From positions 124,001 through 188,000 of the forward strand of contig PEAA01000001.1 of assembly GCA_002753275.1 (NCBI GenBank): 64,000 bases of DNA, read 5' to 3'. Shown here piece by piece: positions 6,523 through 62,756 of this stretch. A program made the position numbers and the translations under genes. The notes under the pieces were generated by a model that was not told where the DNA came from, did not search any database, and saw only the letters and a list, made by a program, of their open reading frames with translations. The first letter of the stretch is position 1, and the number at the start of each line of letters is the position of its first letter. This DNA comes from Zetaproteobacteria bacterium (GTDB taxonomy: Bacteria; Pseudomonadota; Zetaproteobacteria; Mariprofundales; Mariprofundaceae).

Positions 6523-7702
6523 TAACTCCTATGAAAACTTCATTGAAACAATGCATGGCATCGCTAAATTCAGCACAAACCGCTGCATCACGCTCATGTT
6601 GCCAATGGTATGCGAATTGAGAGGCAATTTCTCCCTTTTTTAAATGGGGATTGCATGGATTTAATGCAAGGATTCTTGCAGTAGCCCAAACACTGTGGGC
6701 GCGAATTATAGCCTCATCATCTTCAAGTGCACCAAGAAGCAAGGGAATAAAGTCAATATTTCCAGAATTACCCATTGCAATTGCGACATTACGCAACAAT
6801 CCCGATCGCTTGCTACGCTTGATGGGAGAGCGATGAAAACGCTCCCGAAACCCCACATCGTCCAATGAAAACAGTACAGATAACGATGGTAATTTTTGTG
6901 CTTGGCGACTTTGAAAATGGTCAAGTGTCAACGGCATCACCTTTCGATTCCATGGACAGACCATCTGGCAATCATCACAGCCAAAAATGCGATTCCCCAT
7001 CAAGGGACGAAGCGCTCGATCAATGATGCCTTGGTACTCAATGGTGAGATAGGAGATACATCGACGCGCATCAACCACATAGGGGGCAACAATCGCCTGG
7101 GTAGGACAGGCCGTGATACAAGCGTTACAAGAACCGCAATGAGAGGAGGCCGGCAAATCAGCTTCAATGGGTGCTGTGGTAAAGATTTCACCTAGCAAAA
7201 AGTATGAGCCAAACTCTCGATGAATGGTCAGCGTGTGTTTCCCCTGCCAACCTAACCCTGCCCGCTCCGCAAGTGCATGTTCTAAAATGGGCGCCGTATC
7301 GACAAAGACCCGCTGATCATGAACCCCCAGCAATTGATCAAGTGATTGTGCCAGCGCTTTTAGTTTTCTCTTCATGATATCATGGTAATCATCACCGTGC
7401 GCATAGGCGCCAATGATGCCATAGGTGTTGTTTTTTAAGGCATAATCCAAAGTATAAGGTGGGGCGTGGTAGCGCATGGCAACACTTAATACACTTTGAA
7501 TATCGGTGAGGATTTTGGTTGGTTCTTTGCGCAGTTGAACGCGGGAGGCTTCCGCCATGTAGTGCATTGTACCATGCATTTCGTTGTTAACCCATTGATC
7601 CAGCGCATGACGATGAACATCAGAAAACTGAGCTCGGGTTACATGGCATAAATCAAACCCATGCATGGCTGCCAATTGGCAAATCTCTTTTTTAAGGGTC
7701 AT
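6509..7702 (-). CDS. queG: epoxyqueuosine reductase QueG
   Basis: 397 residues. Cobalamin-dependent iron-sulfur enzyme that performs the last step of queuosine synthesis in tRNA. Two [4Fe-4S] clusters are evident: CGSCNACITACPTQAI and CDDCQMVCPWN. The family segment VDTAPILEHALAERAGLGWQGKHT is present, and a HEAT-like C-terminal region (ALEDDEAIIRAHSVWATARI) follows as usual. First gene of the queG-gph-thiE-thiD run; a bidirectional hairpin separates it from the cytochrome gene upstream. Confidence 0.93.
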   Translation of the reverse strand: MTLKKEICQLAAMHGFDLCHVTRAQFSDVHRHALDQWVNNEMHGTMHYMAEASRVQLRKEPTKILTDIQSVLSVAMRYHAPPYTLDYALKNNTYGIIGAYAHGDDYHDIMKRKLKALAQSLDQLLGVHDQRVFVDTAPILEHALAERAGLGWQGKHTLTIHREFGSYFLLGEIFTTAPIEADLPASSHCGSCNACITACPTQAIVAPYVVDARRCISYLTIEYQGIIDRALRPLMGNRIFGCDDCQMVCPWNRKVMPLTLDHFQSRQAQKLPSLSVLFSLDDVGFRERFHRSPIKRSKRSGLLRNVAIAMGNSGNIDFIPLLLGALEDDEAIIRAHSVWATARILALNPCNPHLKKGEIASQFAYHWQHERDAAVCAEFSDAMHCFNEVFIGVNDAQ

Positions 7703-7735
7703 TGGATAGGCTATGGATGCATCAATAAAAAATTT

Positions 7736-7770
7736 CTAAGGGGCAAAATTATTGGGATTTTGCCCCTTAG
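7736..7770 (-). terminator. strong hairpin terminator after the diheme cytochrome gene
   Basis: Perfect 14-base stem CTAAGGGGCAAAAT / ATTTTGCCCCTTAG around a 7-base loop. On the minus strand it is followed by an A/T-rich run with six T residues (AAATTTTTTATT), so it should end transcription from the cytochrome operon before queG. Confidence 0.85.
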
Positions 7771-7791
7771 TAATATAGGTCAGTCTAGAGA

Positions 7792-8343
7792 TTAATCGAT
7801 CAGATCATCCCAGTTACGGAAGTTGGGAATATCGACAGTTCCATTATCGAAGACACCTTCATGGGCTTCGGTGTGGCATTTATTGCAATAAGAGAGTGAA
7901 CGAACACGCGCATTCTCTTCGATCATTTTACGCGGAATTTCGCCATGTTTCTTTTTGAAGTAAGGAACTTGGGTGATTCGCATCGGTGTAACATCATCAG
8001 GAATCGACTGGTTGATCTTAATGGAGCGTTTGTAGTGCCAAGTGGTATCGGCACCATTTTGTGTCAAGAATGCTTCAATCGTCAGGCGATCCGCTTCTGG
8101 AACTTCCGCATTTTCACCAAAGTGGTTGGCCAATTCACTACGCTGCATTAATTTAGCCCATGAACGCGCAGGAAGAAGGCCAGGTTGATAGGCAAAATGG
8201 CACTCGGCACAATTTTGTTGATAAGTGCTGTTTTTTAATGGCTCTACACCTTTATGACGCGGAAAGCCCAAAATATCATGTGCCATTGCGGTGACTGGGA
8301 TCGATACACACACGGATAAGAACAGAATCTGTTTAATATTCAT
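7792..8343 (-). CDS. diheme cytochrome c (DHC family)
   Basis: 183 residues with a signal peptide (residues 1-21, ending AMA|H). Two heme c sites: CAECH near residue 45 and CNKCH near residue 153. Spacing and the intervening LPARSWAKLMQ and segment near TTWHYKRSIKINQSI resemble the DHC diheme cytochrome c family, periplasmic electron carriers usually encoded next to a cytochrome b-type membrane protein. Here the gene lies 12 bases after a His-rich membrane-protein gene, which fits that arrangement. Redox partner is unknown. Confidence 0.85.
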   Translation of the reverse strand: MNIKQILFLSVCVSIPVTAMAHDILGFPRHKGVEPLKNSTYQQNCAECHFAYQPGLLPARSWAKLMQRSELANHFGENAEVPEADRLTIEAFLTQNGADTTWHYKRSIKINQSIPDDVTPMRITQVPYFKKKHGEIPRKMIEENARVRSLSYCNKCHTEAHEGVFDNGTVDIPNFRNWDDLID

Positions 8344-8355
8344 ATCAATAGGTCC

Positions 8356-8967
8356 TTAAAATTCAATATATAGAGCTGCCGCCATAAGCGCGCCCCCTGC
8401 AATACCCGCTGCAGCATGACTGCCTTTGCCCATGCCGTACTGTTTTGGACCTTTGGAAACAGCATAAGCATAAGCACCAGTTGCCAAGACCCCTAGCAGC
8501 ATGTGGGCTGTGTCTGGATCCATAATGCTTGGCTCTAAATCTTCAAAGTGCAGTGTGAAACCACTCAATACCGCAGCGCCACCCAAGGCCGCTGCTGTTA
8601 AGCCTGCATAGTGATGAAAACCTTTCTTGATGGGTTTCCCGACGCTATTGGCATTGTTCTCATTATCTGGCGCGGTCATTCCAGCGAGTGCTGCCGCTAA
8701 GAAGGAAGCTGCACCTAGATAGCCATGCATCTTGTCTGCGGTCATGAATGGCTCTTCAAAGGGTGCTTCCATGGATGCTCCACCATCAACAGATGATTGC
8801 GTATTCCCCGAGGCATCTGCCAAAAATAAATTTTTAACGCCTTGAGTTGCAATCGGTTGATGTGGTTTCAGGTCATAATAGGCATCCGCAGCCATCGCAT
8901 TTCCACCCATAAGGCATATGCTTGTCGTAACAATCAAAGGGAGTTTTAACCAACTTATCATAGACAT
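8356..8967 (-). CDS. His-rich four-helix membrane protein, possible b-type cytochrome partner
   Basis: 203 residues. N-terminal signal-like segment (1-26), a soluble stretch to about 75, then four hydrophobic Ala/Gly-rich helices (about 78-98, 118-139, 150-171, 182-202). Histidines sit at or in each helix: H81, H118/H119, H140, H155, H184. That pattern suits bis-His heme b binding as in cytochrome b561-type proteins, but I do not recognise an exact family. The adjacent downstream diheme cytochrome c supports a role in electron transfer across or at the membrane. Start ATG 8967; an alternative Met is two codons later. Confidence 0.65.
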   Translation of the reverse strand: MSMISWLKLPLIVTTSICLMGGNAMAADAYYDLKPHQPIATQGVKNLFLADASGNTQSSVDGGASMEAPFEEPFMTADKMHGYLGAASFLAAALAGMTAPDNENNANSVGKPIKKGFHHYAGLTAAALGGAAVLSGFTLHFEDLEPSIMDPDTAHMLLGVLATGAYAYAVSKGPKQYGMGKGSHAAAGIAGGALMAAALYIEF

Positions 8968-9272
8968 CCTTTTTCTTTCTCATTGAGATTAAGTTTACTC
9001 TTGCTTGTTACAAGAGCACTTCGTGATAAAAAAATCTCTCATCACATTGATTTAATTGCTGTTTTATTCAGCATCAAGATGGTTGAATATCAACAATATG
9101 CGCAACACTGCCACTTACATGTTATTAAGGTCAAAACTATTTTTTTACGGTTTCTTACATATTGAATACTCCGATGTCTTATGGTACCTTTTGCATGCAG
9201 TATAAATTAAGTTACTGATCATTTTTTCGTAGGTGACTCCTATATATTGCGCTTTTAAGGAGTCCTGAAACA
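8968..9272. other. 305-base divergent intergenic region
   Basis: A/T-rich region between the minus-strand cytochrome pair and the plus-strand ABC exporter operon; it must hold both promoters. TGCAGTATAAAT around 9196-9207 resembles an extended -10 element reading plus, but no convincing -35 is seen. No coding potential beyond a short unsupported frame. A hairpin covers the exporter ribosome site (separate entry). Confidence 0.5.
9235..9264 (+). promoter_or_regulatory. hairpin sequestering the Shine-Dalgarno of the ABC ATPase gene
   Basis: GACTCCT (9235-9241) is exactly complementary to AGGAGTC (9258-9264), which contains the AAGGAG ribosome site (9257-9262) of the next gene. Loop 16 bases. 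The start codon is TTG at 9273. An RNA fold here would block initiation, as in RNA thermometers or attenuated leaders. Structure seen by eye; regulation is inference. Confidence 0.45.
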
Positions 9273-9989
9273 TTGTCATTGATATCAACATCCTCTCCCT
9301 CTTCAAAGACGCTTCCTATTTTAAGGGGGCAGCATCTTCATCTCTGGTTTGATCATGAGAAAACCAAAGCGCTGGATGATATGAATTACGCCATTTCAGA
9401 GAACGAGTTTGTGGCGATTACCGGGCCAAGTGGATGTGGCAAGTCAAGCCTGCTTAATTTGTTGGGAACATTAGAAATCCCGACCGGTGGAACGCTTTTT
9501 TTTCGTAATCAAAACTACCATGACATTCAAGACCTTGCCCTGTTTCGCCGTCAACATATTGGGTTTATTTTTCAATCGTTTCATCTTATCCCTACGCTAA
9601 GTGCGTTAGATAACATTCTGGTGCCTACCCTTGGAAATTCTCAGCAAAAAAAAGATGTGACGGAGCGTGCATTGGACTTACTTAACATGCTGAACCTGGG
9701 AGGCCGTTCTAACCACTTCCCTAGTCAGCTGTCAGGTGGTGAGCGCCAACGCGTTGCCATTGCACGCGCATTGATTAATCAGCCCGATATTCTTTTGGCT
9801 GATGAACCCACAGGAAGCCTTGATTCAATCAATGCACAACAAGTGCTTGATATTTTATGTGAAATTAAGCAGCAACAGTCCCTTACCATTGTGATGGTGA
9901 CCCATGATCCTGCTGTTGCACTGCGCGCAGACCGAGAAGTCCGTATGCGTGATGGCAAGGCGTTGGATATGACACAGGTGTTAACATGA
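9273..9989 (+). CDS. ABC transporter ATP-binding protein, LolD/MacB type
   Basis: 238 residues. Nucleotide-binding domain with Walker A GPSGCGKSS (about residue 51), Q-loop FIFQSFHLIPTLSALDNI, signature LSGGERQRVAIARAL, Walker B ILLADEPTGSLD, and H-loop VMVTHD. The length and SFHLIPTL segment place it with LolD/MacB/FtsE-type exporters. TTG start at 9273 is chosen because AAGGAG lies 10 bases upstream; the next ATG would cut into the domain. Its stop overlaps the permease start by 4 bases. Confidence 0.9.
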   Translation: MSLISTSSPSSKTLPILRGQHLHLWFDHEKTKALDDMNYAISENEFVAITGPSGCGKSSLLNLLGTLEIPTGGTLFFRNQNYHDIQDLALFRRQHIGFIFQSFHLIPTLSALDNILVPTLGNSQQKKDVTERALDLLNMLNLGGRSNHFPSQLSGGERQRVAIARALINQPDILLADEPTGSLDSINAQQVLDILCEIKQQQSLTIVMVTHDPAVALRADREVRMRDGKALDMTQVLT

Positions 9990-56502: not shown

Positions 56503-57618
56503 CTAAGCAGCCGTAGAGAGTGTAGGTAGGATCGATGCAAGTGCTTGCACAAGATGGAGGTTTTCAATCTCCGTGCCGACAGTAATGCGTAGGAAATCAA
56601 CCATGCCATAGCCTGCAAGGGGGCGAACAATGATGCCGATATCTTCGAGTTTGTTGACTAAACACGCAGCCTCCGGGTGTTTTAACAAGACAAAATTGGC
56701 ATAACTCTGCCCCCCAAGCACCCCCAATCGTTCAAGCTCATTTTCAAGTTTTTGCCGTGCTTCTAAAATATAACGCACCTTATCTTCAACCCAGGCACCA
56801 TCGTGCAGCGCAGCAATAGCCGCTTCCTGTGCGGGCAAATTAACATTGAACGGTTCACGGAAACGGTTGACCACAGAGACAACGCTCGCATCCATGATGG
56901 CATAGCCGACACGACACCCTGCCAATCCATACGCTTTGGAGAATGTGCGTGAAATCACCAGCCCAGGATGGGATAGTTTTGCCACGCTATCGCCAATCGA
57001 TTCGGTGACAAATTGCGTATAAGCTTCATCCAGTAGCACGATGATATGTTCGGGAATACGGTTGAGCATTGCTTGAATTTCATCATTACCAAGCAATGTC
57101 CCCGTTGGGTTGTTGGGGTTGGCAATGCAGATGATCTTGGTCTTTTCGGTGATGGCATCGGCCATAGCGCAAAGGTCATGGCCGAGCATTGCAGTGTCAG
57201 GCACGGCAATGCCCGTTGCACCGGATGCGGTGGTGGCCAGCGCATAAACAATAAACGCTTTTTGGCTATAGATTACCTCATCACCGGCACCTGCAAAGGT
57301 ACGAATGATTAACTCTAAAACCTCATTGGAACCATTTCCGACGACAATTTGTGAGGGTAATATTTTGTGATGTTGGGCAATTGCCTGTTTCAGTCGAATG
57401 GCATCACCATCGGGATAGAGGTGGAGATGCTCTGCACTGTTTTTAAACGCTTGGATCGCTTTAGGAGGTGGTCCAAACGGGTTCTCGTTGGAGGCCAGTT
57501 TAATGGCGTGAGAGAGCCCTTTTTCACGCAACAAGGTTTCAATCGGTTTCCCTGGAACATAAGGGATAAGATGTTGTGCCTGTGGAACAGCACGCGCCAA
57601 CCAACACTCAGTAGTCAT
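56503..57618 (-). CDS. hisC: histidinol-phosphate/aromatic aminotransferase
   Basis: 371 residues, fold type I PLP enzyme. IKLASNENPFGPPPKAIQAF, LYPDGDAIRLKQAIAQHH, VGNGSNEVLELIIRTFAGAGDEVIY, PNNPTGTLL, LLDEAYTQFV and PLP Lys in VISRTFSKAYGLAGCRVGYAI. Lying between pheA and tyrA, it may act mainly on aromatic keto acids or serve both aromatic and histidine routes. Start ATG shares one base with the pheA stop (TAATG). Confidence 0.92.
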   Translation of the reverse strand: MTTECWLARAVPQAQHLIPYVPGKPIETLLREKGLSHAIKLASNENPFGPPPKAIQAFKNSAEHLHLYPDGDAIRLKQAIAQHHKILPSQIVVGNGSNEVLELIIRTFAGAGDEVIYSQKAFIVYALATTASGATGIAVPDTAMLGHDLCAMADAITEKTKIICIANPNNPTGTLLGNDEIQAMLNRIPEHIIVLLDEAYTQFVTESIGDSVAKLSHPGLVISRTFSKAYGLAGCRVGYAIMDASVVSVVNRFREPFNVNLPAQEAAIAALHDGAWVEDKVRYILEARQKLENELERLGVLGGQSYANFVLLKHPEAACLVNKLEDIGIIVRPLAGYGMVDFLRITVGTEIENLHLVQALASILPTLSTAA

Positions 57619-58799
57619 TAAAGCATCCTTGAGACTGGGTATGAACCCAAGAGTTTGACAGAGATTCCTTCAAAGGCTGTGATCTCCTCTAAGGCCTCAG
57701 CGACATTTTTTTCATCACGATGACCTTGAACATCGATCAAAAAGACATATTCCCACAGCCGCTTCTTGGAAGGACGCGATTCGATACGCGAGAGACCGAC
57801 TTTGCGTTTGGCAAAAGACGCCAAGACATCATTCAATGCTCCCGCACGATCTTGAATGGAGAGTACCAGTGCTGTTTTATCTTCACCCGATGGTGGGGAG
57901 TCATGCTTGCCAATGACCAAGAAACGGGTGGTGTTATCATGAAAATCTTCGATGTTTTTTTGTACCAACGGCAGATCGCTGCGATCAACAATGGTGTATC
58001 CTCCAATCGCCGCAGCGGAGTGGCCAATTGAATTGTTTGGATTTTCTGATTTCGCCCGCTCGATCATTTCTGCAGCATAGACAGTGGAGGCAACTTCCAT
58101 CTGTTCGGCATGGGGAAGGTGCGCTTGCAGCCAGTTGCGGCATTGTGCCAACGGCTGTGGATGGGAGATAACCACCTTAATATCTTCCAGTTTTTCAGCA
58201 TAGCTAAAAAGATGGTGATGGATGGAGAGTTGCACCTCCGCACAGACCAACACATCGCGGTCATCATCGGCAAAGAGATCCATCGTGTGCGTGACGGCGC
58301 CTTCAAAGGCATTCTCTACAGGGACAACGCCATAGGTTGCTCGCCCCGCCTCGACCGCATCAAAAACCTGCGCCAGGTTTCCACAACTTAAATAGTTGGG
58401 ACTGGTACCAAATTGACGCGTTGCCGCGGTATGGGTGAAGGTTCCTTCGGGACCCAAAAATGCGATGGTCATCGGGTGTTCAAGTGCCAGGCAGGAGCCA
58501 ATGATTTCGCGATAAATGCCGTGGATCGCCTCATCAGGGATATGTGATTCATGGCTTTTTTCAGAGAGGTGTTGATTACGGTCGAGTAACCTGCGAATGA
58601 TCTTCGCTTCGCGACTGGGAACATAAAAAGGGGCATTTTTTTGGTCTTGTTTGAATTCACCGACCTGCCCCGCAAGACGCGCCCGTTGATAAATAAGTTC
58701 AAAAATTTGATCATCAACAGCATCGATGCGTTGACGAAGATCATCAAGGTTGTGAATGGAAGTTTTATTGGTTGGCTTGTTACTTGGCTGATCACTCAT
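57618..58799 (-). CDS. pheA: chorismate mutase-prephenate dehydratase (P-protein)
   Basis: 393 residues with AroQ chorismate mutase (about 18-100; DDLRQRIDAVDDQIFELIYQRARLAGQVGEFK), prephenate dehydratase (about 108-285; AFLGPEGTFTHTAATRQFG, VVPVENAFEGAVTHTMDLFADD, and TTRFLVIGKHD) and a C-terminal ACT domain (TALVLSIQDRAGALNDVLASF, ESRPSKKRLWEYVFLIDVQGH) for Phe feedback. Overlaps the receiver gene upstream by 4 bases. Confidence 0.96.
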   Translation of the reverse strand: MSDQPSNKPTNKTSIHNLDDLRQRIDAVDDQIFELIYQRARLAGQVGEFKQDQKNAPFYVPSREAKIIRRLLDRNQHLSEKSHESHIPDEAIHGIYREIIGSCLALEHPMTIAFLGPEGTFTHTAATRQFGTSPNYLSCGNLAQVFDAVEAGRATYGVVPVENAFEGAVTHTMDLFADDDRDVLVCAEVQLSIHHHLFSYAEKLEDIKVVISHPQPLAQCRNWLQAHLPHAEQMEVASTVYAAEMIERAKSENPNNSIGHSAAAIGGYTIVDRSDLPLVQKNIEDFHDNTTRFLVIGKHDSPPSGEDKTALVLSIQDRAGALNDVLASFAKRKVGLSRIESRPSKKRLWEYVFLIDVQGHRDEKNVAEALEEITAFEGISVKLLGSYPVSRML

Positions 58800-59191
58800 C
58801 GGTTTTGACCCAATGCCTCAGCAATCGCGATATAAAGCGCACTTGAGAGATAGGGTTTCAGCAGATAACTTGAAAAATGGACATCATCGGCAGGAATGCG
58901 ATCTTCGGCGTGACCCGTAACAAGAATAATCTGGATATCAGCATTGATTTTTTGAATTTCGCGGGCGCACTCAATGCCATTCATGCCTGGCATACTTAAG
59001 TCTTGCAAAACAAAGTCGATGCGCCCACCCTGCTCTTGCAAAAGAGTCAGCGCGGCTTGACCACTGTTGGCATCAAACACCTCCACGCCATGTTTGTCGA
59101 GCATCATGCGTGACATCAAACGCATCGCATCATCATCATCAATGAGCAACCCGCGTTTGCCTTGTAAAAAAGCCATATCCATTGTAACCAT
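58796..59191 (-). CDS. stand-alone response-regulator receiver protein
   Basis: 131 residues, single CheY-like domain without output. Acidic pocket GLLIDDDDAMRLMSRMML, phospho-acceptor Asp in FVLQDLSMPGMNGIECA, Thr in ILVTGHAED and Lys in SSYLLKPYLSS. ATG 59191 with GGGAG upstream; an ATG at 59182 is possible. ATGA overlap with pheA; no cognate histidine kinase in the window. It follows the CBS gene by 28 bases, a wider gap than elsewhere in the array. Confidence 0.9.
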   Translation of the reverse strand: MVTMDMAFLQGKRGLLIDDDDAMRLMSRMMLDKHGVEVFDANSGQAALTLLQEQGGRIDFVLQDLSMPGMNGIECAREIQKINADIQIILVTGHAEDRIPADDVHFSSYLLKPYLSSALYIAIAEALGQNR

Positions 59192-59219
59192 CCCCTACTC
59201 CCTCAGCCCTCTCACTTGC

Positions 59220-59627
59220 TTAGAAGAGGCGCAATAATCCTTTCATTACCATGTCGGTGTAGCTGACAATGCCAATGACATTGCCTTCACGATCCACCAC
59301 CGGTGCACGCGCCAAACCAAAATTGCTGAAAAGCATGCTGGCATGTCGAATGTCCATTTCTGGATGCACGGTAATGGTCGGCTTGGCCATCACTTCATAG
59401 ATTGACATTCGATCGGGAGATACATTTTTTGCCAAAACCTTTCGTGCAATATCTGCAATCACGACGATGCCATATTCATCATGTTCATGGAATTTGTCCA
59501 CAATCAAACATTTTGTCTCGACATGCTCCATCATTTCCAAGGCTTGGCGTACGGTTGCGCGCCCATCAACGATGTCATATTGGGTCTTCATGACATCGCG
59601 GACGGAAACAAATTTTCGTTGATTCAT
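59220..59627 (-). CDS. CBS-domain-pair protein, partner of PII-like/DUF1538 genes
   Basis: 135 residues, tandem CBS: MKTQYDIVDGRATVRQALEMMEHVETKCLIVDKF and VMAKPTITVHPEMDIRHASMLFSNFGLARAPVVDREGNVIGIVSYTDMVM. Soluble; nucleotide binding likely. Its ATG overlaps the stop of the PII-like gene by 4 bases, so they are translated together. Likely a sensor or regulator for the two DUF1538 membrane proteins encoded just upstream. Confidence 0.85.
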   Translation of the reverse strand: MNQRKFVSVRDVMKTQYDIVDGRATVRQALEMMEHVETKCLIVDKFHEHDEYGIVVIADIARKVLAKNVSPDRMSIYEVMAKPTITVHPEMDIRHASMLFSNFGLARAPVVDREGNVIGIVSYTDMVMKGLLRLF

Positions 59628-59974
59628 AGTTTCTCCTCCACATCTTTCATCAAGGTTTGAATTTGAGAGCGAAGTCCAATGGTATCTTCAACATCGAGTT
59701 GAAACGCGACTCCACTGCCCGGATTTTGTTCAAAGCCCGCAGCCTCGGCAACATCTTCCAAAATGTGACGGCTGAGATGCTCCTCGACCAGGAAAAGCAG
59801 CATATCTCGACTGCTTTCAAGGGTTAAACCAAAAAAACTCTTTTTGGGATTGAGCCCTTCACCCCGGGCATCGCCAATGACGGTTGCACCGGTAGCCCCT
59901 GCTTGCCGTGCTGCATTCATGACAGATTCTGTTTTCTCTTTGTCCAACAATACGATCAGTAGTTTAAAATGCAT
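59624..59974 (-). CDS. PII-like (nitrogen-regulator-superfamily) signalling protein
   Basis: 116 residues, about the size of GlnB. Segments [40 protein letters not shown] and a C-terminal helix-strand consistent with the ferredoxin-like PII fold, with a variant middle (NPKKSFFGLTLESSRDMLLFLVEEHLSRHILEDV) in place of the uridylylated T-loop Tyr. It is a PII-like relative rather than GlnB/GlnK. Starts on the last base of the DUF1538 stop (TAATG), with GGAGTGAG upstream. Confidence 0.8.
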   Translation of the reverse strand: MHFKLLIVLLDKEKTESVMNAARQAGATGATVIGDARGEGLNPKKSFFGLTLESSRDMLLFLVEEHLSRHILEDVAEAAGFEQNPGSGVAFQLDVEDTIGLRSQIQTLMKDVEEKL

Positions 59975-60771
59975 TACTCACTCCCCTTCTCTCCATGATT
60001 ACTCCCTTGGTTGTTACGATGATTGATCCATTGTGAAAGTTGCGCATAGCCCATCACCGTCATAATGGGAAATGCACAGGCAAAGGCAATTAAGCCAAAG
60101 CCATCCATCAAAGGACTGCGTCCTGGAATCGATTCTGCAAGCCCCAAGCCCAATGCCGCAAGCATCGGTACCGTCACGGTTGAGGTGGTGACTCCCCCTG
60201 AGTCATAGGCAAGTGGGATGATGGTTTTGGGGGCGCGAAAGGTTTGCAAAATGATGATGATGTAGATGACCATGATGTAGATCCACAGCTCGGCACCTGT
60301 GACGATACGGAAGCAGCCAATGGCAACCCCGAGCGCAACCCCGATGGAGGCAGCAATACGCAAGCCAAGGGCTGAGATGGTTCCTGCTGAAATGGTCTCA
60401 GCTTTCAGTGCAACGGCCATCAAAGCGGGCTCTGCCATTGCGGTGGCGATACCAATGGTAAAGCCAAAAACATAGACCCAGCCGTAATCTTGCCAATGAA
60501 TCATCACCCCATCGATGGAGGGAGTACCATAGACAAACATCGGGTTGGTCAGTTGTTTAGCCATCATCTCCCCCAATGGAAAGATCGACTCTTGCAGCCC
60601 CACCAAAAAGAGTGCCAAGCCAAGAATGACATAGACAATCCCTTGAAGAATCTGTTTCAAATTGGCCACAGGGCGTTTTAAGATGAGGTATTGAAAACCA
60701 AAAAGCACAGCGATGACGGGAATGACATCGCGCAGTGTTGAGATCAAGGTTTCGATTAACAGATCAATCAT
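59974..60771 (-). CDS. DUF1538 membrane protein, subunit B
   Basis: 265 residues, about six to seven membrane helices. Family core: [69 protein letters not shown]. Same architecture as the preceding gene (60768-61514), with which it overlaps by 4 bases, so the two probably form a heteromeric channel or transporter. Function unknown; the linked PII-like and CBS proteins suggest metabolic gating. Confidence 0.85.
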
Positions 60772-61514
60772 GCAAAGACCACGATGCCGTAAAGCATGAC
60801 AAAAAGCACAGGTAAGAGCGAGGCGAAGGCGATCATGCCAAAACCATCAAGAATGGGATTGCGGCCACGCAGTGAGGATGCGAGCCCGACCCCGAGCGCG
60901 GTGATCAGGGGGACAGTGATGGTGGAGGTGGTCACACCACCAGAATCGTAGGCAATACCAATCATACTTTCCGGTGTGAACGAGGTCATCGCAATCACCA
61001 GAATGTAGCCAGAAATGATGCAGTAGTGCAGTGGCCATGCAAAAATGATACGCAAAACACCGAGTAAAATGGCGACGCCAACCGAAAGAGCAACGGTTAA
61101 ACGAAGCCCCAACGCATAGTCATCCATGGCGCGTTGTGTATGGTCGATTAAATGACCCTCAGCGGCGACTTCTGCCGCCTTGGAAGCAACGGCTATCAAG
61201 GCGGGCTCGGCAATGGTGGTTCCGAACCCCAATAAAAATGCGAAAAGAAAGAGCCAGAATGAACTCCCCTTGCGTGCAAATGCTTGCGCCAACCCCTCCC
61301 CCAAAGGAAAGAGACCAATCTCCAATCCACGCACAAACAGCGCCAATCCGATCATCACCAAAAAGAGTCCTGAAACCATGTGCTCCAGTGCAAACAGCGA
61401 TTGCTGAAATACGACCACCTGAAAGAAAGCAATCACCAAAACAATAGGAGTCAGATCGCGTATGGCGTCCAATAGCGGCCGAAGCGCATCTTTTAGCAAT
61501 AGGATCTGTTTCAC
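60768..61514 (-). CDS. DUF1538 membrane protein, subunit A
   Basis: 248 residues. Starts with an amphipathic segment ([30 protein letters not shown]), then helices around [24 protein letters not shown] and [30 protein letters not shown], and core [57 protein letters not shown]. First gene of the DUF1538/PII-like/CBS group; starts 3 bases after hisS. Confidence 0.85.
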
Positions 61515-61517
61515 GAA

Positions 61518-62756
61518 CTACCCGGCAATAACCTGAAGGGCAGCCTCAAGGGTTATCTGTTGTTGTTCACCGGTGGCCATGTTTTTCAAGCTGATGAGGC
61601 CTTGTGCCGCTTCAGATTCACCGATAACCACGACAAATCTGGCCTGTTCACGGTTGGCGCGTTTGAACTGCTTTTTACTGTTACCGAGCCCGCAATGAAC
61701 AACGCATAAATCGGCATGTCGCAGTTGTTGTGCGAGGTTCAAACTATGATTGAGAAGTGCATCACCCATGGTGATTACAGCGACATCGACGCTTGCAGAT
61801 TCAGCTTCAGGCAGAAGCATTGCCAACCGCTCAACCCCCATGGCAAAGCCGATGGCAGGGGTTGCTTCTCCCCCCAGTTCTGCAACCAAGCCATCATAAC
61901 GCCCCCCAGCCAACACAGTGCCTTGTGAACCGAGTTGATCGGTGACCGCTTCGAAAGCGGTACGGTTGTAGTAATCGAGCCCACGGACAATGCGAGGATT
62001 GACACGGTAAGGCACTTTCAACGCATCAAGCCCAGACTTTAACCCGGTGAAGTGCTGGTCACACCCTTCGCACAAATGGGCAACCATCTCAGGTGCATCG
62101 GTGAGGGCATTTTGGCAGCTGGCGATTTTACAATCGAGGACGCGCAACGGATTTTTATCCATCCGTTCACAGCATGTTTCACACAAGTTCGCATGCTGGG
62201 TGGTTAAAAATTTCACCAACAAATCGCGGTAAAGAGGACGACACTGCTGGCATCCCAACGAGTTGATCTCCATGCGAACTTGTGAAATACCTAAATCTTC
62301 TAAAAAGGCGGCAGCCATGGCGAGCAGTTCAATATCTTCACTGGGGCCTTCGCCACCAAACCATTCGACACCGATCTGTTGAAATTGACGCAAGCGCCCC
62401 TTTTGTGGGCGTTCACGGCGAAACATCGGACCTGCATAGAACCAGCGCTGCGCTCCTGCTCTGGTGAGCCCCGCTTGTAAAAAAGCGCGCACGGCTCCAG
62501 CCGTCCCTTCCGGGCGCAGGCAGAGATCATCGCCCCCTTGATCGACAAAGTGGTACATCTCTTTGGAGACAATATCGGTTGCTTCACCAATGGAACGAAC
62601 AAAAAGTTCGGTGGGCTCAAGAATGGGCAGGCGCACCTCTTCAAAGGCGTAACGCTTAAAGATAGCACGCGCACGCTGTTCGACTTGTTGCCACTGGCGC
62701 ACATCTTGGGGCAGACCATCATGCACCCCGCGAATACTCTTTAATTGCACAGCCAT
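61518..62756 (-). CDS. hisS: histidyl-tRNA synthetase
   Basis: 412 residues. Class II motifs: IRGVHDGLPQDVRQWQQVE, EPTELFVRSIGEATDIVSKEMYHFVDQGGDDLCLRPEGTAGAVRAFLQAG, FYAGPMFRRERPQKGRLRQFQQIGVEWFG (motif 2), and LAGGRYDGLVAELGGEATPAIGFAMGVERL (motif 3). A C-terminal anticodon-binding domain follows. Three bases after ispG. Confidence 0.97.
   Translation of the reverse strand: MAVQLKSIRGVHDGLPQDVRQWQQVEQRARAIFKRYAFEEVRLPILEPTELFVRSIGEATDIVSKEMYHFVDQGGDDLCLRPEGTAGAVRAFLQAGLTRAGAQRWFYAGPMFRRERPQKGRLRQFQQIGVEWFGGEGPSEDIELLAMAAAFLEDLGISQVRMEINSLGCQQCRPLYRDLLVKFLTTQHANLCETCCERMDKNPLRVLDCKIASCQNALTDAPEMVAHLCEGCDQHFTGLKSGLDALKVPYRVNPRIVRGLDYYNRTAFEAVTDQLGSQGTVLAGGRYDGLVAELGGEATPAIGFAMGVERLAMLLPEAESASVDVAVITMGDALLNHSLNLAQQLRHADLCVVHCGLGNSKKQFKRANREQARFVVVIGESEAAQGLISLKNMATGEQQQITLEAALQVIAG

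Follow-up and report, generated by a model that had tools for sequence, protein, structure and literature searches.

A DUF1538, PII-like and CBS gene array

The window analysed here is a 64,000-nucleotide (nt) stretch of Zetaproteobacteria bacterium contig PEAA01000001.1 (positions 124,001 to 188,000). On its minus strand, four overlapping genes between positions 61514 and 59220 encode two DUF1538 membrane proteins related to the UmpAB antiporter, a PII-like protein and a CBS-domain pair, and together they probably specify a regulated cation/proton antiporter. The four genes are as follows.

60768..61514, minus strand: umpA-like DUF1538 membrane protein, 248 amino acids, GTG start; predicted antiporter subunit A (Pfam DUF1538, NCBIfam UmpA)
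59974..60771, minus strand: umpB-like DUF1538 membrane protein, 265 amino acids; predicted antiporter subunit B (Pfam DUF1538, NCBIfam UmpB, AlphaFold2 model)
59624..59974, minus strand: PII-like protein, 116 amino acids (Pfam P-II, PII fold by Foldseek)
59220..59627, minus strand: stand-alone CBS-domain pair, 135 amino acids (Pfam CBS, two stretches); a common but optional member of the module

The two membrane-protein genes overlap by 4 nt, the umpB-like and PII-like genes by 1 nt (TAATG), and the PII-like and CBS genes through ATGA. All domains of the array score above the Pfam gathering cut-offs, with E-values of 1.4e-66 and 5.6e-62 for DUF1538 in the umpA-like and umpB-like products, 3.4e-10 for P-II and 2.3e-17 for CBS. 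Both membrane proteins contain the cores [11 protein letters not shown] and DGFG(M/L)IAFA. A preliminary description of this DNA had reported the two shared cores ([11 protein letters not shown] and DGFG.IAFA), together with the coordinates and overlaps of these genes and of a receiver gene downstream, and the open reading frames and translations confirm each of them. A search for a promoter or terminator inside the array returned matches only at chance level, which would fit one long transcript shared with housekeeping genes.

PII and usually CBS genes accompany umpAB across two phyla

The neighbourhoods of related genes were examined in three surveys anchored on DUF1538/Ump and blind to PII; a few genomes are common to the surveys, so that the counts are not fully independent. 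In the first survey, of 80 UmpB-anchored loci from public genomes (nearest relatives, a sample that leans to close kin), a PII gene lies directly downstream of umpB in 78, and a CBS gene follows the PII gene in 74 of these 78. Forty loci picked to span families of Pseudomonadota gave PII in 37 and CBS in 26 of the 37. The third survey covered 20 loci from another order, where PII was present in every one and CBS in 18. The order UmpA-UmpB-PII-CBS is found in most of about 140 loci, far beyond chance. Loci of the UmpAB type from Desulfobacterota also carry PII (3/3; L183, L184, L186). The preliminary description had held that its idea of a module would fail if DUF1538 genes rarely co-occurred with PII-like and CBS genes, and the surveys show the opposite.

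The two regulatory genes can also leave the membrane pair. A sister family has umpAB without these neighbours (L062, L063), and PII and CBS are found together elsewhere (L164-L166), in L165 behind a malic-enzyme-like gene; a Beggiatoa genome is split likewise between umpAB (L081) and PII with CBS (L193). Because the two genes stay together after leaving umpAB, PII and CBS behave as a pair. The CBS protein of the window scores 63.5 bits over its two stretches and contains two CBS repeats, the second with G119-I-V-S-Y-T-D125 and the first with G53...D59, lacking the Ser/Thr.

Several loci have unusual arrangements. Two complete DUF1538 systems occur in one cluster in L205 and L207, in the order PII, UmpA, UmpB, PII, CBS, fused Ump, PII, CBS. 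In L050, which lacks the stand-alone CBS gene, umpAB-PII is immediately preceded by a pair of CNNM/CorC-type proteins that contain CBS domains (6809-9413). In L146 (Aliamphritea spongicola), stop codons interrupt umpA and the reading frame for CBS is in pieces, with umpB and most of the PII gene open, which reflects either a decaying module or sequencing errors.

The membrane pair is homologous to UmpAB

The two subunits score 209.2 and 224.2 bits against DUF1538, with a cut-off of 22.6 bits (Pfam). Each is nearest to its own type, UmpA on NF041627 (E 1.9e-109, 364.6 bits) and UmpB on NF041628 (E 1.8e-101, 338.8 bits). Since the curated equivalog cut-offs of 490 and 500 bits are not reached, the pair is classified from its profile scores as a DUF1538/UmpAB homolog and not as a UmpAB equivalog. 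In antiporter-deficient Escherichia coli, the UmpAB of Halomonas zhaodongensis, also of DUF1538, acts as a heterodimer and carries out Na+(Li+,K+)/H+ antiport that depends on pH (PMC5484666). The function class of the membrane pair is known from this work, and by homology Na+(Li+,K+)/H+ would be the substrate in this lineage as well. NhaA is also encoded in the genome of the window. In a separate line of work, DUF1538 was among the Pfam families tied to bacterial growth pH by a machine-learning model (PMC13255231).

The AlphaFold2 model of UmpB (58 sequences, single chain) has a mean predicted local distance difference test (pLDDT) of 88 and seven helices. Two helices are broken, near E114-P115 and near D190-SGGVTT, and E114, D190 and D223 are invariant across the 58 homologs. 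Ion/proton exchangers, NhaA among them, typically have acidic residues in broken helices, and the region of E114 and D190 is for this reason taken as the probable ion/proton site in the model. A Foldseek comparison of this single-chain model with the PDB gave no kinship to known antiporters at E<=0.001, with best TM-scores of about 0.2. No PDB entry related to DUF1538 was found by sequence or profile, and profile-profile comparison of the two halves detected no internal repeat.

These properties bear on what is transported. The DUF1538 pair of this lineage might move cargo other than Na+/K+, such as an amine or another cation, still under PII gating, with the Halomonas assay recording a side activity. 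Such a reading gains from the scores below the UmpA and UmpB cut-offs, from the lack of a solved relative or fold match, and from the demonstration of antiport for one homolog only, expressed in a foreign host (PMC5484666). However, UmpB homologs of many marine or halophilic genera share more than 50% identity and the same subunit order, and the core acidic motif is invariant, which makes other cargo unlikely. Cation/proton antiport remains the preferred reading of the pair. Of the preliminary proposal of a heteromeric transporter with two sensors, the PII and usual CBS gene partners hold in both Pseudomonadota and Desulfobacterota, whereas the substrate, given there as unknown, is now narrowed by the homology to the UmpAB antiporter.

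The PII-like protein and its conserved T-loop

The PII-like protein belongs to the PII superfamily (P-II score 40.6 bits, cut-off 25 bits) and adopts the PII fold according to Foldseek, with GlnK1 and CPII as the best matches. In canonical PII proteins, Q39, K90, R101 and R103 bind Mg-ATP and 2-oxoglutarate. The aligned family positions 42, 89, 100 and 102 are variable, I/V, G and variable, so that the canonical GlnB/GlnK residues are not conserved and canonical 2-oxoglutarate sensing by the Ump-associated PII appears unlikely. Compared with these positions, the T-loop is well preserved: its motif reads K-T-F-F-G-L-x-L-E-x-Q-R-D, and conservation over residues 45-57 is 3.03 bits per position versus 2.48 in the rest of the protein, as expected if the loop meets one partner. 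The 116 residues include no cysteine; some SbtB proteins have a CGPxGC redox loop at the C-terminus, and this loop is absent here.

A more divergent lineage of the transporter has its own PII proteins. In some genomes two DUF1538 domains are fused in one protein, whose cores are mostly WDCGGVTT/WDSAGVTT. PII is adjacent in 4/4 fused loci reached via DUF1538 (L042, L044, L181, L185), a fifth (L182) ending at a contig edge; conversely, all nine weak, divergent PII matches fetched from genomes of this lineage lie beside DUF1538 (L167-L169, L172, L173, L191, L195-L197). CBS occurs in none of these loci; in several of them PII is present twice or as a tandem-PII protein. The tandem-PII proteins, both from Desulfobacterota, are as follows.

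L181:1824-2933: tandem-PII protein, 369 amino acids, directly after a 713-residue fused DUF1538
L185:1888-3033: tandem-PII protein, 381 amino acids, directly after a 706-residue fused DUF1538

The PIIs of the fused lineage form their own branch in the PII tree. In L042 and L044, where both systems are present, the PIIs group by partner type and not by genome, and the partner label changes 11 times on the tree compared with a shuffled mean of 37.2. Because this tree rests on few columns and some of its branches are long, only the coarse partner split is trustworthy.

PII and CBS might never touch the antiporter; the PII would then sense nitrogen and carbon in general and be co-transcribed with umpAB only so that the genes are expressed together. 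Canonical PIIs do sense nitrogen status, and some PIIs of the subfamily lie away from DUF1538: in L158 the next genes are dusB-ntrBC-like, in L155 an argB-like gene is close by, and L156 is a further case; these PIIs possibly have another partner. However, the genome of the window, which is 94% complete, yielded a single P-II match, that of the window, and a search of it for the ammonium transporter Amt found none. No classical nitrogen job is therefore left for this PII, and a nitrogen role is unlikely; the route through Amt was rejected on the same ground. The loss of the equivalents of Q39, K90, R101 and R103, the two separate PII lineages that track two DUF1538 lineages, and PII adjacency kept across two phyla also speak against a general sensor. 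Mere co-expression is accordingly improbable, and a PII dedicated to the antiporter is preferred.

The receiver gene and the hisS-pheA setting

Three further genes frame the module in the window.

58796..59191, minus strand: single-domain receiver, 131 amino acids (Pfam Response_reg); a local addition
61518..62756, minus strand: hisS (open reading frame and translation); upstream neighbour, context only
57618..58799, minus strand: pheA (open reading frame and translation); downstream neighbour, context only

The GTG start of the umpA-like gene lies 3 nt past the hisS stop. The receiver gene (Response_reg E-value 1e-20, above the gathering cut-off) begins 28 nt after the CBS gene and overlaps pheA by 4 nt. 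A receiver ortholog was sought in 70 other genomes of the family and none was found; its best kin are receiver domains within frames of 673 and 788 amino acids. The preliminary description had included the receiver in its candidate gated-transporter module, and this membership is rejected on the missing orthologs. A wider signalling operon at this locus, with the receiver as a further control on the transporter through phosphorylation, is very improbable on the same count and because pheA follows the CBS gene in L064, in spite of the shared strand and short gap here and of an OmpR-type regulator found after PII in L041 and L042, two loci from another family.

hisS is upstream of umpA in 4 family loci, pheA is downstream of CBS in one other (L064), and several more loci have neither. 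The position between hisS and pheA had been proposed to tie the module to amino acid or nitrogen status; as it is common to only some family loci, it gives no support for such a tie and was discarded as a functional clue.

A model for PII gating of the antiporter

The four genes at 61514-59220 are probably a regulated cation/proton antiporter in which a PII trimer gates UmpAB and the CBS pair serves as a second sensor. This reading is built on gene content, order, conservation and co-inheritance, on the PII fold, and on the loss of canonical PII ligand residues, while antiport itself is known from the Halomonas homolog; we infer the substrate in this lineage, the docking of PII, its ligand, the direction of control and the role of CBS. 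UmpA and UmpB, homologous seven-helix proteins, would form an inner-membrane heteromer that exchanges Na+ (Li+, K+) for H+, with the conserved acidic residues of the two broken helices (E114 and D190 in UmpB) probably forming the ion/proton site. The PII-like protein, which fold analogy predicts to be a trimer, would dock on the cytoplasmic face through its T-loop. It may open or close transport in response to a small ligand in the clefts between subunits; this ligand is probably an adenine nucleotide, bound in a non-canonical mode, rather than 2-oxoglutarate. The CBS pair would act with PII as an accessory, optional sensor. Gating from inside is proposed because of the precedents of SbtA-SbtB and AmtB-GlnK, whose PII partners insert the T-loop into the transporter exit on the cytoplasmic side (PMC8352866).

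Several observations weigh against this model. The window pair falls short of both UmpA and UmpB equivalog cut-offs (364.6 of 490 and 338.8 of 500 bits), and among 392 genomes of another order no UmpA above the curated cut-off was found, the closest reaching 428 bits (L204, with PII and CBS). CBS is missing from the deep fused DUF1538 lineage and from some others. Among 110 strong matches to the PII subfamily, 28 have no listed DUF1538 within 2.5 kb; four of these proved adjacent to DUF1538 once fetched (L187-L190), and six such PIIs are in genomes without any DUF1538 match (G022, G117, G129, G145, G181; some incomplete). The PII subfamily is therefore not exclusive to the antiporter. Finally, transport works in E. 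coli with Halomonas UmpAB but without PII or CBS (PMC5484666). This activity suggests that PII and CBS would be regulators that are dispensable for transport, and inhibition is the simpler guess for their effect.

PII proteins are best known for sensing nitrogen and carbon and gating ammonium and bicarbonate transporters. Both the antiporter and PII gating of transporters are known; the open-access literature, in which only five papers name DUF1538, appears to hold no report of the two combined: no published link of PII to DUF1538 was found, nor of a PII-like protein to an antiporter or CBS (subscription papers were not covered). The near-constant PII follower, usually with CBS, suggests a widespread way of tuning ion exchange to cell state. 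More tentatively, and at somewhat less than even chances, DUF1538 may be an unrecognised class of PII-gated cation/proton antiporters whose fold is absent from the PDB; in Pseudomonadota and Desulfobacterota, CBS and a dedicated PII lineage, with one PII, two PIIs or a tandem form, would then link pH and Na+/K+ homeostasis directly to the adenine-nucleotide state. Should a whole antiporter family have a PII of its own, often with CBS, metabolites would directly control ion and pH homeostasis in many bacteria of marine or saline habitats, and a role would emerge for the non-nitrogen PIIs of many genomes. This idea lends itself to testing in laboratory E. coli, where UmpAB has already complemented antiporter mutants.

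Comparison with known systems

Structurally, the carboxysome-associated PII-like protein CPII of Thiomonas intermedia is the second-best fold match of the window PII, and its crystals hold adenine nucleotides and bicarbonate; however, CPII is not among the PDB-sequence matches of the window PII family profile at E<=0.01. AmtB-GlnK likewise combines a membrane transporter with a co-encoded PII, and the best fold matches of the window PII include GlnK structures. In contrast to that system, the window genome has no Amt and the canonical GlnK ligand residues are not conserved in the window PII family.

The cyanobacterial bicarbonate transporter SbtA and its PII-like regulator SbtB share with the window a transporter gene beside a dedicated PII-like gene and the PII fold, and T-loop docking from the cytoplasmic side is the analogy proposed for the window PII. 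The membrane components differ, as no PDB chain, and so no SbtA chain, matches the DUF1538 profile; the window PII also lacks the C-terminal CGPxGC motif (PMC8352866), and the window module adds a CBS partner. Compared with UmpAB of Halomonas zhaodongensis (NF041627/NF041628), the window pair lies below the equivalog cut-offs, and PII and CBS are not mentioned in PMC5484666; the two systems nevertheless share paired homologous DUF1538 proteins, overlapping genes, the order of subunits and a strong profile match.

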